DNA from: a virus
Length of the DNA: 64,000 nt
Virus record (IMG/VR): IMGVR_UViG_3300044833_000115
Location: 1-64,000 of that record
Reading direction: 5' to 3' (one strand)
Shown here: positions 12,277-18,375 of the stretch, in pieces
Layout of the letters: every line of letters begins with the position of its first letter
How positions within the stretch are numbered: position 1 is the stretch's first letter
Made by a program: the position numbers and the translations under genes
Notes under the pieces: model-generated
Database searches by the model: none
Seen by the model: the letters and a program-made list of their open reading frames with translations, nothing else
Told to the model about the DNA's origin: nothing

Positions 12277-12542
12277 GACTGCGCCGTGTAGCCGTCCTCG
12301 AATTCCTTCTTCGGGCACACCGACTTGTAGCCGTCGCGGTAGCGCATCGCGTAGTCGCCGAGGGTGCAGCGCCTCACCATCATCGGTTCGGTGGTGACGA
12401 AGGACTCGGTCGAACAGTCAGGCAGCGACACGACAAGGCCGATGGGAAAATCCCCCGGCAGCGGGTTCAAAGGATACTCGAAACCAACAATCGGCGCGGC
12501 ACTGACGACTTTGTGGGAGACGTATTTAGGCCAGTCGGTCAT
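12273..12542 (-). CDS. Unknown phage protein, 89 aa
   Basis: Begins MTDWPKYVSHKVVSAAPIVG and contains three Cys, one in CSTESF and one in VCPKKEF. The ATG overlaps the portal stop region (12539-12542). The YVSHKVV opening recurs in small proteins near phage portals as far as I recall. Function unknown. Confidence 0.7.
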   Translation of the reverse strand: MTDWPKYVSHKVVSAAPIVGFEYPLNPLPGDFPIGLVVSLPDCSTESFVTTEPMMVRRCTLGDYAMRYRDGYKSVCPKKEFEDGYTAQS

Positions 12543-14896
12543 GGCTTTTTCTTTCCTGCTGGTTTCGCTGGCTTGGGCTTCATGCTCGCCACCTTGGTCG
12601 CAGTCTTGGCCGAGGTGTCGGTTGCGTGCCGGGCGGTGTCGGCCGAGGTTTTCGCAGTCTCGCGGGCCGTGGCCGCGCCGGTATCTGCAACATGGCGATC
12701 GGTGTCAGCTTGCGTCGCCGCGGTCGCCGCGCCAAGGGCCGCGGTGGTGTGCGCCGTATGCGCCTCGATCCCGGCCTTGTGCTTGTCGGTGTCGGCCTTG
12801 ATCTGGGCGGTGTGCACGGCGGTCGCCGCGTCGATCGCGGTGCCTTGCTGGTCGCGGGTGTGCTCGCTCGCCAGCCGGGCCTTCTCGATCTCCAGGCGGG
12901 TGTTCTCGACTTGCTCCTGGCTCGTCGCGGTGCGCTGGCGGGTCTCCATCTCCAGTTGCTTGTTCTGGGTTTCGCTCGCCATCTCGGCCTTCTTGTTCTC
13001 GTCCTCGATCTGCGCCTCGGCCGCCTTGCGTTGCAGATCCACGCTGGCCTGCTGCGCCTGCTGCATCTTGGCTTGCGCCTCCAGCATCCGCGCCTGGCCG
13101 ATCAGCGGGTCGGGGGGGGCCGGGCCGGGGGGGCCACCGGCCGGCGGCGCGGCGGGCTGGGCCAGCACGAAGGCGTCGGCGTCGTTGACCCCGATCGTCT
13201 TCCAGGCCCGCTTATGCACCGCCGTCATGTCGTAGAGGGTCGGGTTCTGCTGCGCCACGGTGACCAGGGCGGTGGCAAGCTGGATGCGGTGGATCTGGCT
13301 GGGCACGTTCGGGTCGGACGCCGGCAGCAGGTTGCAGTTGGCGAATTCGTCGGGCTTGTCCCATGGCCGCAGCGCGCCGGGCATCTTCGCCAGCGCCTCG
13401 GGGTTCTCGACAAAGCACTCCCTGATCAGTTCCAGTTCGCGCGCCTGGGCACGGTGCAGCCGCTTGTGCACGGCACTCATCGTCTGGGTAGACACCTCGA
13501 TCATGCTCATCATGGTGCCGACCGGGACGTTGGTGCGGCCCTCGCCCATCTCGGTCTCCGCCATGCCGGCCATCCGCATGGAGTCCTGGCCGATCGCCTC
13601 GGCCAACTGCATGAACACCGGCGATACGTCCTTGTAGGGCATCGGCATCAGCGCTTTGCGGATGTCATCGAGGGAGCCGATGTCGATATCCGGCCACTCG
13701 CCAGGCCCCGGGTTGATGTCGTTGGTGCCCATCCTGACGGATTTGACCTTCACCCCGCCGGGCGCGTTGGAATACATCCCCGAGGTGACCAGCAGCCGCC
13801 AGATGCCGCGGAGCGCCTGGGTCTGGTTGCCCAGCAGGTGCATGAAGCCGAGGCAGAGAAAGTTGAAGCTGGGCACCATGCCGTAGTGCACGAACCGCTG
13901 GCGGCGCTTGAACTGGTCGTCGCCATCCTTCCAGCCGCGCCTGACCGCCAGCACCTTCCGCGACTGCTTGTCGATCGTGCAGATGTAGGACAGCGGCAGA
14001 TCGGGGAGTTTGCGGTCATCGATCCCGTAGTCACCCAGGTCCAGGTCGGCAGTGATCTCGTAGATTTCGTGCGGCACATCCTTCGGCCGCGCCTGGATGC
14101 CGCTCGTTCCCTGCACCCGCTCCTGGGCGATCCGCAGCATGTCCATCGACGGTTGCGCGCTGCCCAGGTCTTCGTCGCACCAGTCGGCGAACTTCTGCAT
14201 CCGCTTGACCATGACGGTGGACATTTCGGAGCGGTGCGTCACCCGGAGGGCTGTTTCCAGGTCGGTCGCGTCCTCGGAGACGATCAGATCCTCGATCCCG
14301 ACCGTCTCGGACACCGGCCGCTTGCGCAGCGGGTGCATGTAAACCTTCTTGAAGGCGTTGCCCGAGTAGAACAGGCCGAACAGCATCCGGTCGGTGTCGG
14401 GGTAGTACTCGGGCGCCCCGCTGGTCAGGTAGGTGTTGATATCGGTCTGGAACGCCGCGGCCAGGTCATCGCCCTCGGCAGATCCGCCGGCGACGTTCTC
14501 GACCTTGCACGGCCCACCGGCCGGCATCAGTTCCGCTCCCGCGGCCGACTGCGCACGCACCACCGCTTCCAACAGCAGCGGGTGGCCTATCTGGCTGGTC
14601 TTGGCGTTCTTGTCGTTCTTGGTTTCCAGGCCCAACAGGTCGATGCCGTTGGTGTAGTTGGCCAGGAACCCCTCGCGGCTCTTGATGTCCATCTCGACGC
14701 CATCGAGCAGTTCCTCGGCGATCCCGGCCTCATCCAGTTCGTCGCGCAGGGCGAGGTTTTCGTGAAACCCCTTGGTCGGGTCATTCGATCGGCGAGCACT
14801 CGGGGCCTTGATCGTCACACCACCGTCGGGGTCTATCTCCACGACGGTTTCGGAGGTCCCCAGGCCGAAGCCCGGGATCTGACTCATTGCGTTCAC
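12539..14896 (-). CDS. Portal protein (P22-like type)
   Basis: The 785-residue protein has the size and composition of podovirus portals, which form the dodecameric ring through which DNA enters and leaves the head. Seen: LDGVEMDIKSREGFLANYTN (~60-80), DTDRMLFGLFYSGNAFKKVY (~165-185), and a core helix-rich region to ~560. A long Ala/Thr/Gln/His-rich helix with near-heptad repeats (TAVHTAQIKADTDKHK and onward) leads to a basic tail. It follows terminase in the operon. The start is GTG 14894-14896 with GAGGGA upstream; ATG at 14887 (MSQIPGFG) is an alternative. Confidence 0.8.
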   Translation of the reverse strand: MNAMSQIPGFGLGTSETVVEIDPDGGVTIKAPSARRSNDPTKGFHENLALRDELDEAGIAEELLDGVEMDIKSREGFLANYTNGIDLLGLETKNDKNAKTSQIGHPLLLEAVVRAQSAAGAELMPAGGPCKVENVAGGSAEGDDLAAAFQTDINTYLTSGAPEYYPDTDRMLFGLFYSGNAFKKVYMHPLRKRPVSETVGIEDLIVSEDATDLETALRVTHRSEMSTVMVKRMQKFADWCDEDLGSAQPSMDMLRIAQERVQGTSGIQARPKDVPHEIYEITADLDLGDYGIDDRKLPDLPLSYICTIDKQSRKVLAVRRGWKDGDDQFKRRQRFVHYGMVPSFNFLCLGFMHLLGNQTQALRGIWRLLVTSGMYSNAPGGVKVKSVRMGTNDINPGPGEWPDIDIGSLDDIRKALMPMPYKDVSPVFMQLAEAIGQDSMRMAGMAETEMGEGRTNVPVGTMMSMIEVSTQTMSAVHKRLHRAQARELELIRECFVENPEALAKMPGALRPWDKPDEFANCNLLPASDPNVPSQIHRIQLATALVTVAQQNPTLYDMTAVHKRAWKTIGVNDADAFVLAQPAAPPAGGPPGPAPPDPLIGQARMLEAQAKMQQAQQASVDLQRKAAEAQIEDENKKAEMASETQNKQLEMETRQRTATSQEQVENTRLEIEKARLASEHTRDQQGTAIDAATAVHTAQIKADTDKHKAGIEAHTAHTTAALGAATAATQADTDRHVADTGAATARETAKTSADTARHATDTSAKTATKVASMKPKPAKPAGKKKP

Positions 14897-15071
14897 CAGG
14901 CAAATCCCTCGGCCGTTCGTCGCTCACGCGCACCAGCATCGTTGGCATCACGCCGCGCCGGGTCGGCCGCAGGCATCCACAGGGAAGCTCCCAAACATCG
15001 AGATCACACTGGCCCATTTCGGGGCGGCGTAACCATCCCATTTCGATCGCGGTTCGCTGAACCACGATCAT
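14781..15071 (-). CDS. Unknown small protein overlapping the portal start
   Basis: ATG 15069-15071 overlaps the upstream stop by ATGA. The frame runs 96 residues and overlaps the portal gene by 116 bases. The N-terminal part (MIVVQRTAIEMGWLRRPEM, then CDLDVWELPCGCLRP) looks like a real protein with three Cys. The last ~39 residues lie in portal DNA and are Arg/Pro-rich, as a shadow frame would be. Either a genuine overlapping gene or one truncated by drift of its stop. Confidence 0.5.
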   Translation of the reverse strand: MIVVQRTAIEMGWLRRPEMGQCDLDVWELPCGCLRPTRRGVMPTMLVRVSDERPRDLPGERNESDPGLRPGDLRNRRGDRPRRWCDDQGPECSPIE

Positions 15072-15181
15072 CCGCTGTCGCCAAGATACGTCTTCAGCGC
15101 GGCCATCAGCCGCGCCCACCAGCCAGGTTTCTTCGGCGGATCGGGCAGCGGGTATTTCATCCCAGGATCGATGCTTTCCAT
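15068..15181 (-). CDS. Microprotein, 37 aa
   Basis: ATG 15179-15181 to TGA 15068-15070. The product (MESIDPGMKYPLPDPPKKPG, then WWARLMAALKTYLGDSG) has a Pro-rich start and an amphipathic helix with paired Trp. It overlaps the upstream gene by 25 bases and its stop forms ATGA with the next start. This coupling is the main support. Confidence 0.5.
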   Translation of the reverse strand: MESIDPGMKYPLPDPPKKPGWWARLMAALKTYLGDSG

Positions 15182-15369
15182 CCGTTCCTCTTGAAAATCG
15201 GCCGCAGATCGTAGTCGTGGCACCCGATCGCCCACTTGAGGATCGGCGCCGCGGCGATGCAGCGGCGGCTATGCGTCAGTTGTTCCATGACGATCCCGGC
15301 GACGAAGTGATCGGCGACCACGCGCACCAGGATCTCGCCCTCGATCACCCCCAGCACTGGCCGGTCCAC
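15157..15369 (-). CDS. Unknown small protein, 70 aa (GTG start)
   Basis: GTG at 15367-15369; the product reads VDRPVLGVIEGEILVRVVAD, then HFVAGIVMEQLTHSRRC and APILKWAIGCHDYDL, ending FKRNGWKASILG. This pattern (AAPILKW followed by a GWK end) is familiar from short proteins in phage packaging regions, but the function is unknown. It overlaps the preceding membrane-type microgene by 25 bases. Confidence 0.6.
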   Translation of the reverse strand: MDRPVLGVIEGEILVRVVADHFVAGIVMEQLTHSRRCIAAAPILKWAIGCHDYDLRPIFKRNGWKASILG

Positions 15370-15476: not shown

Positions 15477-15706
15477 CACTTCCCGTTGCGCAGGATCTCG
15501 GTCACCAGGGCGGGGTCGGGGGGACATGAGCATTCCGGCCACGTGCATCCTTCAGGGCTGAAGTATGGCGCACACATGAACGGCTGGCGCCGCGGTTCGA
15601 CAGTCTCGGCGATGATCAGCGGCCCACCAGGATACCCGGCGGCGTCACCAATTTGCGGCAGGAATTCGTCCCGGCGATCAGCGCTCGACATGGCTACACC
15701 CCTCAC
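15473..15706 (-). CDS. Unknown Cys-containing protein, 77 aa
   Basis: GTG 15704-15706 overlaps the terminase stop (GTGA); ATG at 15691 (MSSADRRDEF) is an alternative start. It holds four Cys (MCAPYF, GCTWPECSCPPD), enough for a metal site or disulfides. No family recognised. Confidence 0.6.
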   Translation of the reverse strand: MRGVAMSSADRRDEFLPQIGDAAGYPGGPLIIAETVEPRRQPFMCAPYFSPEGCTWPECSCPPDPALVTEILRNGKW

Positions 15707-18375
15707 ACGCCATACTGCTCGCGGATGCTGGGAGCGTTGCCCTTGAAGGTCAGCCCTTCGAGCCGTTCGGTCTCGACTTCATCGGTGTGCTGGACAACAC
15801 CCAGGTCGCGCAGCTTCTTCACGCCCGCGCTCACGGTGTCCGTGAGGTCTTTCCACTTGCTCCGCGGAAACTGCGAAACCTCGTCCATGACCATATCGGC
15901 CCATTTGCGGGCTGGTGCAAAGACCAATCCAGCCGAGAACGCGGGGGAGACCGCGTGCAGACGGGCAACCTTGTCGCCCTTCGGCGACTCCGCGAAGATG
16001 GTGAACTCCCCCTCACGCATCAGCCGACGCAGTTCCTGCATCACCGATAACCCGCTCGCCTTGGCCTCGATCAGCACCGCATCAGCCTTCCGCCGGCGCG
16101 CGGTATCGAGGATCTTCAACGTGAGCGCGCGCAGTTCCAGCCGCTCACGCCAGGCCTCCAACAGGATCACCTTGGGATTGCCGCTCATCTCGAACGAGCC
16201 CCAGACGGTGCACGCCGACCAATCGTTCTCTTCCTTCTCGGTGTAGGCGGTGTCCACGGACAGCAGAATGTAATCCAGGTCGGGGTAAAGCATCCGCAAC
16301 ACCTTCGTCCCGTCCACATCGACCTCGCGCGTCCAACTGTCCTCCTGCCCCTCGGGCGGCCAGACGCGCCACCACTCCCGCGGAATGATTCCACCGCCCC
16401 GCGTGGTCGGGATCTGGTTCATCTGCCCGGCCCAGGAGTGCGGCCCCATCAGCCGCTCGGTCTTCACCGCCCAGGCAGGGCTGAACCGGGCCGGCCAGAG
16501 CATCGCGCCCTCGATCTTGCGCGGATCATCGAAGCCGATGACGGTGTGACAGTGCCGCCGGCTGTCGTACTCCATCGGCAACATCAGGTGGACGATGCTG
16601 CTGCCGCCGGGCTCGGCCAGGACGTGCCCCGACAGGTCGTTTTCGTGCAGCCGCTGCATGACGATGACCTCGGCGCCGTGCACCGGGTCGTTGGATCGCG
16701 TGCGCCACACTTCGTCGTAGGCGCGCAGCGTCGCGTTGCGCTGAAGATCGCTTTCGACCTCATCCGGCTTGGTCGGATCATCGACAATCCGGATCGCGCC
16801 GCCCTTGCCCAGGCTTTCAGGGATGCCGGTCGATATCCGGCTTCCGCCCTCCAGGGTGTCGTACTGGGACTGATTGTCGCGGTCGCGGGCGATCCGCACC
16901 CGATCGCCCCATCGCGCCTGATACCACTCGCTGCCGATCAGCCGGCGCGCAGTCACGCCGTCCGCTTCGGCCTTGTTGGCGCCGTAGGAGGCGCACAGGA
17001 ACCGCACGCCGGCGCCGCGCAGGGGCAATTCCTCATCCGGCTCCAGCGCCCAGGTCCAGCACGGCCAGGCGATGGCGATCAGGTTGGTGTTGTGCGTCGG
17101 GTTTAGCTGGCGCCCGACCAGATACAGCCCATCAGGCCGATCCACCTGGATTGACCGCGCGCCTGTCTTCTCGATCGGGCCGATAGAGCGGATGCCCACC
17201 GCCCGTTGCGGGGAGAGGATCGTGTTTTGCTTCCGAGGGATGCGTGTCGGGAGACGCATCGTTGGCTGGAAGCAAACGCGAAACATCGTCTTTCGACCCT
17301 GGATCGGCCGGCCATTGATCAGTCGCGGGCGCTCGCGAGGTTCTTCTGAAATCACGTAAGGCCGCTGGCCCATCGTGGTCAGTAGATCGACAATGCCATC
17401 ACGAAGCCGCGGCATCGCCGTCGCTATGTAAACCCTACCGTCCCGATCCACGCCGCCATCGGTATCCACCAGCCCGGCCAGCAGTTGCAGCCGCTGTTCG
17501 TAGCTGGAGCGCAGGTAATTTTCGGGGATGTGCTTGTCGCCCAGCACCTTGAGGGCGCCCATGGCGGTATAGAAACCGCCTTTGAAGTCGGCGTAGTGCA
17601 CACCGGTAACGGGATGAACTCGGCGCTGGCTAACGACACAACCGCCGTCGACCATCGCCTCGACAACCCCGGCATCCCGCTCGACATATGCGATCCTGGC
17701 CTGCCGACTCGACCCATCCCCAAGCCAAGCCCCGAGCGCATACGGGTGGATGGGCAACAGGCTGGCATGTGGGAATTCCAGGGGATCGATTTCTGGAAGC
17801 TGGAAGCGAGCACGGCCGCGGGGCCATACCCCCCGCTGCGCCATATCCCACGTTTCCATCGTCTTGCGACGCCGCTCAGGCAAACGCTCACCACGGTCAA
17901 TGACCGTCCACTCGTGATTCGGGTGACAGCGGATCACCTCGCCGTTCGTCAGTGTGACAGGAACAACCTCATCCACGTCAGCCGATAGCCCGATGATCGT
18001 AGTTGGCTGGCCATCAGGCCCGAATACCTGATCCCCAATCTTCAGATCGCCATGCGTGGACCATCCTGCCGTTGTCAGAACCGGCGTATCATGGGCACAC
18101 GCCTTACCGGTTCGCGGCGGCTGGTTGATCAGCAATCGGACGATCTGCCCGGCGGTCACCGCTTCGAGGTGCTCGGCAATCGCCCCGATATGCCAGTTCG
18201 ACATGAACGGCGAACTGTCGAACGCGCCCCACGACTGCGCCAGGAACTCCGCCAGGGACGCCTCGCACGCCTCCTGGCTTTCGCGCAGTTCGATCATCCG
18301 CTTTAGCATCACCGCCCGGCGGATCTTGGCCGGGCTCAATGTCGCGATGCTGGGAGGTAGGGCCATGGGAATCAT
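15703..18375 (-). CDS. Large terminase subunit interrupted by an intein
   Basis: The 890-residue precursor is the DNA-packaging motor. The N-extein (1-91) ends in PPRTGK and the C-extein (from 430) starts TNLIAIAWPCW, so splicing rebuilds a clean Walker A, RTGKT. Walker B is IRIVDDP (~505-515). The nuclease domain has LLSVDTAYTE, DAVLIEAKASG and a late DxxxDxxS region (DLTDTVSAG), the acidic triad of RNase-H-like TerL nucleases. ATG 18375 or ATG 18366 (MALPPSI) could start it; the leader shared with 6921-7556 favours 18366. The gene ends by GTGA coupling to the next. Confidence 0.9.
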   Translation of the reverse strand: MIPMALPPSIATLSPAKIRRAVMLKRMIELRESQEACEASLAEFLAQSWGAFDSSPFMSNWHIGAIAEHLEAVTAGQIVRLLINQPPRTGKACAHDTPVLTTAGWSTHGDLKIGDQVFGPDGQPTTIIGLSADVDEVVPVTLTNGEVIRCHPNHEWTVIDRGERLPERRRKTMETWDMAQRGVWPRGRARFQLPEIDPLEFPHASLLPIHPYALGAWLGDGSSRQARIAYVERDAGVVEAMVDGGCVVSQRRVHPVTGVHYADFKGGFYTAMGALKVLGDKHIPENYLRSSYEQRLQLLAGLVDTDGGVDRDGRVYIATAMPRLRDGIVDLLTTMGQRPYVISEEPRERPRLINGRPIQGRKTMFRVCFQPTMRLPTRIPRKQNTILSPQRAVGIRSIGPIEKTGARSIQVDRPDGLYLVGRQLNPTHNTNLIAIAWPCWTWALEPDEELPLRGAGVRFLCASYGANKAEADGVTARRLIGSEWYQARWGDRVRIARDRDNQSQYDTLEGGSRISTGIPESLGKGGAIRIVDDPTKPDEVESDLQRNATLRAYDEVWRTRSNDPVHGAEVIVMQRLHENDLSGHVLAEPGGSSIVHLMLPMEYDSRRHCHTVIGFDDPRKIEGAMLWPARFSPAWAVKTERLMGPHSWAGQMNQIPTTRGGGIIPREWWRVWPPEGQEDSWTREVDVDGTKVLRMLYPDLDYILLSVDTAYTEKEENDWSACTVWGSFEMSGNPKVILLEAWRERLELRALTLKILDTARRRKADAVLIEAKASGLSVMQELRRLMREGEFTIFAESPKGDKVARLHAVSPAFSAGLVFAPARKWADMVMDEVSQFPRSKWKDLTDTVSAGVKKLRDLGVVQHTDEVETERLEGLTFKGNAPSIREQYGV
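17089..18102 (-). other. Intein with LAGLIDADG endonuclease inside TerL
   Basis: The intein covers precursor residues Ala92 to Asn429 (338 aa). Seen: ACAHDTPVLT (block A, Ala at position 1), NHEW (block B with Trp two residues after His), two LAGLIDADG-type motifs (YALGAWLGDGSS and LLAGLVDTDGG), RSIQVDRPDGLYLVG (block F) and PTHN followed by Thr (block G). Ala1, Trp in block B and Thr before His-Asn match class 3 inteins. The usual class 3 Cys of block F is Ser here. The insertion cuts the Walker A P-loop exactly between Lys and Thr. Confidence 0.88.

Follow-up and report, generated by a model that had tools for sequence, protein, structure and literature searches.

The window (the whole 64,000-nucleotide stretch that was analysed) comes from a 66.8-kb IMG/VR virus record and carries on its minus strand, at positions 15703-18375, a terL gene encoding an 890-aa precursor of the large terminase subunit (PHROG_38, E=9e-69; Pfam Terminase_6C), which is the single TerL found in the record. 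A 338-aa intein (17089-18102; Ala1-Asn338, corresponding to Ala92-Asn429 of the precursor), identified by alignment and fold match, separates an N-extein of residues 1-91 (18103-18375), whose last residues, PPRTGK, are one half of Walker A, from a C-extein (15703-17088) that holds the remaining part of the ATPase and an RNaseH-like nuclease domain; these and the intein features given below are all on the minus strand. The insertion point is located between Lys91 and Thr430 of the precursor, that is, at PPRTGK/T within Walker A (a slash denotes a junction throughout). Downstream of terL there is a portal gene (12539-14896, a weak match), and a long open frame of 862 aa is found antisense to it (12626-15214, plus strand), probably as an effect of high GC content.

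Splicing residues and predicted fold of the intein

Excision of the insert, which is in frame, yields PPRTGKTNLIAIAWP (PPRTGK-TNL), and the intein-free TerL relatives L002-L005 (61-77% identical) read PPRFAKT, PPRFGKT, PPRHSKT and PPRHCKT at the insertion site, so that the junctions can be considered secure, as had been stated, with exact limits at Ala92 and Asn429, in a preliminary description of this DNA. Blocks A, B, F and G are present, and all four align with those of the TerL intein of Gordonia phage ViaConlectus (41% identity) and others; a single-sequence search with the window intein alone retrieved just one relative, at 26%. In the PDB, the splicing part matched by sequence the mycobacterial class 3 DnaB inteins 6bs8, 6rix and 6riy, and the endonuclease part matched PI-SceI. 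An AlphaFold model, computed from a 61-sequence alignment and covering the intein plus ten flanking residues per side, has a mean pLDDT of 92.9, a pTM of 0.91 and a HINT fold. In Foldseek comparisons the whole intein model matched PI-SceI (E=4e-18), and its splicing domain matched class 3 DnaB inteins (6riy and 6bs8), with a target TM-score of 0.78 for MchDnaB-1.

The intein starts with Ala (GCG) and Cys (TGT) (18097-18102), and position 1 is thus devoid of a nucleophile. Block B is NHEW (17908-17919), in the context CHPNHEW, with His B:10 at 17914-17916 and Trp B:12 (Trp65) at 17908-17910. The homing endonuclease domain, whose best fold match is PI-SceI, contains both LAGLIDADG-type motifs, YALGAWLGDG (17713-17742) and LLAGLVDTDG (17455-17484). 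Block G is PTHN (17089-17100), made up of Thr G:5 (Thr336, 17095-17097), His G:6 (17092-17094) and Asn G:7 (17089-17091) after the Pro, and is followed by Thr+1 (ACC, 17086-17088), the +1 nucleophile and also the Walker A Thr of the mature TerL. At position 4 of block F (F:4), where class 3 inteins have Cys, the residue is Ser317 (TCA, 17152-17154).

Ala1 sets the intein apart from class 1, in which position 1 is a nucleophilic Cys, Ser or Thr, and its Thr+1 in a TerL host sets it apart from class 2 of the KlbA type, with Cys+1 in KlbA. On the other hand, a first residue other than Cys, Ser or Thr, Trp B:12, Thr G:5 and a Ser or Thr at +1 are all as in class 3, and the likeness to this class that had been noted earlier from Ala1, the Trp of block B and the Thr preceding His-Asn is borne out by the alignment. 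The same holds for the reading of Ser (TCA) at the block F nucleophile site, since the alignment to relatives with Cys at F:4 is gap-free from F:4 to the C-terminal Asn, which secures the assignment. A sequencing error was considered as the source of Ser and rejected: one error cannot give TCA because TGY to TCA requires two base changes, and the independent contig L077 has a different Ser codon. Judged from its sequence, the window intein is a class-3-like variant, WST instead of WCT, that falls outside class 3 as presently defined.

A family of phage TerL inteins with serine at F:4

A scan of IMG/VR with a Ser-specific (TCN) sequence pattern, verified on the window, detected seven contigs representing five further distinct Ser-F:4 proteins, all of them TerL. 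The five inteins are all inserted at GK/T, keep His B:10, Trp B:12, THN and Thr+1, and are 61 (L077), 43, 45, 44 and 41% identical to the window intein. Their position 1 is A, Q, S, L and L, Ser1 being found among the six Ser-F:4 inteins only in L079. The F:4 codons of the six (TCA, TCC, TCA, TCT, TCA and TCA) vary in the third base and constantly encode Ser. No intein was found in viral contigs with a pattern for AGY serine codons, and the strict TCN pattern gave no true Ser-F:4 intein in 84,980 prokaryote species genomes, where its three matches were chance ones in stop-filled frames.

A second scan was based on motifs distant from F:4 (CHxNHEW and HGDL[KR][IV]GD), and its best 80 loci were taken. 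The merged set comprised 76 distinct inteins, in which F:4 and +1 were Cys/Ser in 63, Cys/Thr in seven and Ser/Thr in six; in this set, most of which came from the second scan, F:4 was Cys (70) or Ser (6) and no other residue, and Trp B:12 was present in 76/76. The retention of Ser and the occurrence of only Cys or Ser at F:4, observed with scan motifs lying far from this position, support a functional Ser. In isolate or plasmid records F:4 was Cys in 14/14 examined.

Other peculiarities were observed in these proteins. Position 2 of the intein is usually Leu, Ile or Val, and Cys2 recurs in at least ten Cys-F:4 and three Ser-F:4 P-loop inteins. The TerL of L079 (IMGVR_UViG_3300031566_012467) bears, besides the Ser-F:4 intein at Walker A, another intein of 330 aa that is class-1-like (CLTGDTPIL...VVHN/TRW) and lies deeper in the ATPase domain; a second junction, THN/C, is found downstream in L106 and L163 too. 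The TerL encoded by L007 (272-2995, plus strand) belongs to another subfamily (about 36% identity) and has an apparent intein inserted three residues further upstream (PPG/PGWVENLVM...AVHN/TMKS) that starts with Pro, has a Cys near F:4, is devoid of Trp B:12 and Thr G:5, and does not fit cleanly into any class.

In an intein tree built without the F:4 column, the Ser forms group into two clades, {window, L077} (100/99) and {L078, L079, L081, L083} (100/100), which sit among Cys-F:4 clades; this position, and an identity of 37-47% to Cys-F:4 P-loop inteins, place the window intein in the class 3 lineage. Two changes at F:4 are required by 200/200 bootstrap trees, and constraining the Ser forms to a single clade costs 2.8 log units (AU p=0.456), so that Ser F:4 would have had one or two origins, a single one not being rejected.

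Thr+1 is found in 6/6 Ser-F:4 forms versus 7/70 Cys-F:4 forms. When alignment columns were ranked by their ability to separate six Ser from 55 Cys forms, F:4 came first and +1 second, as expected if both nucleophiles had changed together, and no other column of the ranking clearly explained the reactivity of Ser. The association of Ser F:4 with Thr+1 has a Fisher p of 1.5e-6, a value that ignores relatedness and behind which the number of independent contrasts is just one or two. In the TerL family of the window, the Walker A position natively has Thr. Among intein-free TerLs of isolates, those nearest to the second Ser clade (41-51% identical) carry Ser at +1 in 4/4 cases (PPRHGKS or PPRSGKS), and simple inheritance from the TerL family therefore does not account for Thr+1 in both clades. 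The preliminary description was right in considering the intein class-3-like and in placing Ser at F:4, and had missed both the family and its constant Thr+1 partner.

Proposed serine-initiated splicing and its alternatives

The dN/dS ratio is about 0.14 in the second Ser clade (L079/L081, 0.123/0.854; splicing domain, 0.156/0.988) and is similar in the endonuclease and splicing parts; the endonuclease motifs are intact in the Ser forms, and the dN/dS of TerL, about 0.2-0.3, indicates that selection is maintained. The inteins of the window and L077 are 61% identical, their TerLs just 24-28%, and the nearest TerLs of the window (61-77%) are free of intein. The divergence of the TerLs, together with the lack of intein in the nearest ones, indicates that homing most likely brought an already Ser-bearing intein into one or both of these terL genes, where it was retained. 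Moreover, since a single TerL was found in the record, a P-loop insert unable to splice should be lethal. By every sequence test, then, the window intein and its family appear to be alive, and purifying selection, intact endonuclease motifs and transfer between unrelated TerLs make decay or blocked splicing unlikely.

These observations bear on a choice left in the preliminary description, according to which either Ser is the nucleophile or splicing is slowed or blocked, thereby controlling packaging. Splicing that is dead or very slow from Ser, with TerL interrupted or packaging held back, would be in line with the inactivity of an engineered Cys-to-Ser change at F:4 (PMC7891396) and of Arth_1007, a decayed class 3 relative lacking Cys F:4 (PMC3196547). 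Arth_1007, however, has also lost His B:10 and lies in a broken gene, while in the present case TerL, the endonuclease motifs and the remaining catalytic residues are all intact and subject to selection, and Ser is common to six diverged inteins. We consider this possibility improbable. Of the two earlier options, a Ser nucleophile has the better support; none emerged for slowed or blocked splicing, nor for a control of packaging through it, considering that six diverged Ser inteins are intact, under purifying selection, spread, and located in conserved TerLs.

The explanation that we favour, with a probability of roughly 0.7, is that the LAGLIDADG intein of the window belongs to the class 3 lineage and uses serine as its internal starting nucleophile (WST for WCT). 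The fact that at least five other phage inteins share the Cys to Ser swap suggests a working variant that has gone unrecognised, and not a defective copy; that the intein splices, and that Ser317 is the branch point, is what we infer from the sequence comparisons. Mch DnaB-1 has a protease-like triad consisting of Cys F:4, His B:10 and Thr G:5 (PMC7664689), and replacing Cys by Ser in a triad of this type would create a Ser-His-Thr triad with a serine oxyester as the first branch. With Trp B:12 and Thr G:5 holding it in place, His B:10 would activate Ser317, whose attack on the Lys91-Ala92 peptide bond would transfer the N-extein to Ser317 through an oxyester linkage (block F branch). The N-extein would be received by Thr+1 through transesterification (block G branch), cyclisation of Asn338 would release the intein, and an O-N shift would join Lys to Thr, thereby completing the TerL Walker A motif.

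Ser is generally no substitute for the catalytic Cys (PMC5222942), and the Cys-to-Ser change at F:4 (C124S) abolishes splicing of the AceL NrdHF class 3 intein (PMC7891396). Because the laboratory change is dead, natural Ser forms would have to carry compensating changes, the one clear candidate being Thr+1. As a tentative extension, the Ser F:4/Thr+1 inteins may follow a working class 3 pathway that is free of sulfur, with an oxyester at each of its two branches and a joint exchange of both nucleophiles, and that has arisen more than once among phage TerL inteins.

In the class 2 intein of KlbA, Asp F:4 has been proposed to assist Cys+1. The strongest rival explanation, unlikely as we judge it, is a class-2-like one in which the N-junction undergoes direct attack by Thr+1, with Ser F:4 in an assisting role only, for instance through a hydrogen bond to Thr+1. 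Such a mechanism would account for the pairing of F:4 with +1, and class 2 inteins also lack a nucleophile at position 1 (PMC4031507). The known class 2 inteins are nevertheless KlbA orthologues with Cys+1, a direct attack by Thr would be harder chemistry, the class-3-only residues Trp B:12 and Thr G:5 are retained in 6/6 Ser forms, and in class 3 inteins the +1 residue is unable to replace F:4 (PMC5222942).

A location of the nucleophile elsewhere, which had been put forward as a refutation of the role of Ser, was checked with Cys2, the only other candidate near the N-junction. Although the window, L077 and L079 have Cys2 beside this junction, the other three Ser-F:4 inteins have Leu2, which led us to reject Cys2 as a general relocated nucleophile; Cys2 also accompanies Cys F:4, and a class-1-type attack by it would leave the P-loop with one Ala too many, so that a relocation is scarcely credible. 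Very unlikely as well is conditional splicing, in which the oxyester route would be tuned to an infection cue and time the activation of TerL. A precedent exists in a class 3 intein in which the oxidised F:4 Cys pauses splicing (PMC6195587), but there is no sign of a cue here, Ser cannot act as a redox toggle, and the endonuclease domain, being intact, points to an ordinary selfish element.

Comparison with known inteins

In published accounts of class 3 inteins F:4 is always Cys. Cys was the initiating nucleophile in all mycobacteriophage inteins examined (PMC5050341), and the sole exception to the rule, Arth_1007, was shown to be a pseudogene (PMC3196547). A census of 1,701 inteins required Cys at F:4, so that Ser forms could not appear in it (PMC7891396). 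No report of a natural Ser-F:4 class 3 intein was found in the class 3 literature searched, whose scope did not extend to Tori and Perler 2011. If the Ser-F:4 inteins splice, the definition of class 3 would widen, a natural experiment would be available on a HINT active site that uses serine where the laboratory Cys-to-Ser change kills, and protein engineering could gain class 3 inteins that are oxidation-proof. The joint change of F:4 and +1 offers a rule that is concrete and testable.

The window intein resembles the class 3 inteins MP-Bethlehem DnaB, Dra Snf2 and Msm/Mch DnaB-1 in the lack of a position 1 nucleophile, in His B:10, Trp B:12 and Thr G:5, in the His-Asn end and in a Ser or Thr at +1, and differs from them in having Ser instead of their conserved, essential Cys F:4. 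Like the AceL NrdHF split class 3 intein (MCT), it departs from the WCT triplet; that intein, however, has kept Cys F:4, is split and lacks an endonuclease, and its C124S mutant is dead (PMC7891396). The Arth_1007 class 3 pseudogene shares the absence of Cys F:4 but is also devoid of His B:10, located in a broken gene and inactive (PMC3196547), whereas the present inteins are otherwise intact and lie in conserved TerLs. The Cys-F:4 P-loop TerL inteins, which include those of Gordonia phages ViaConlectus and Zipp, Porphyromonas phage005 and Bacteroides B124-14 as well as about 60 IMG/VR inteins, have the same site, between GK and Ser or Thr, the same architecture and a LAGLIDADG endonuclease, with identities mostly of 37-47%; they carry Cys F:4 and mostly Ser+1, in contrast to the Ser F:4 and Thr+1 of the window family.
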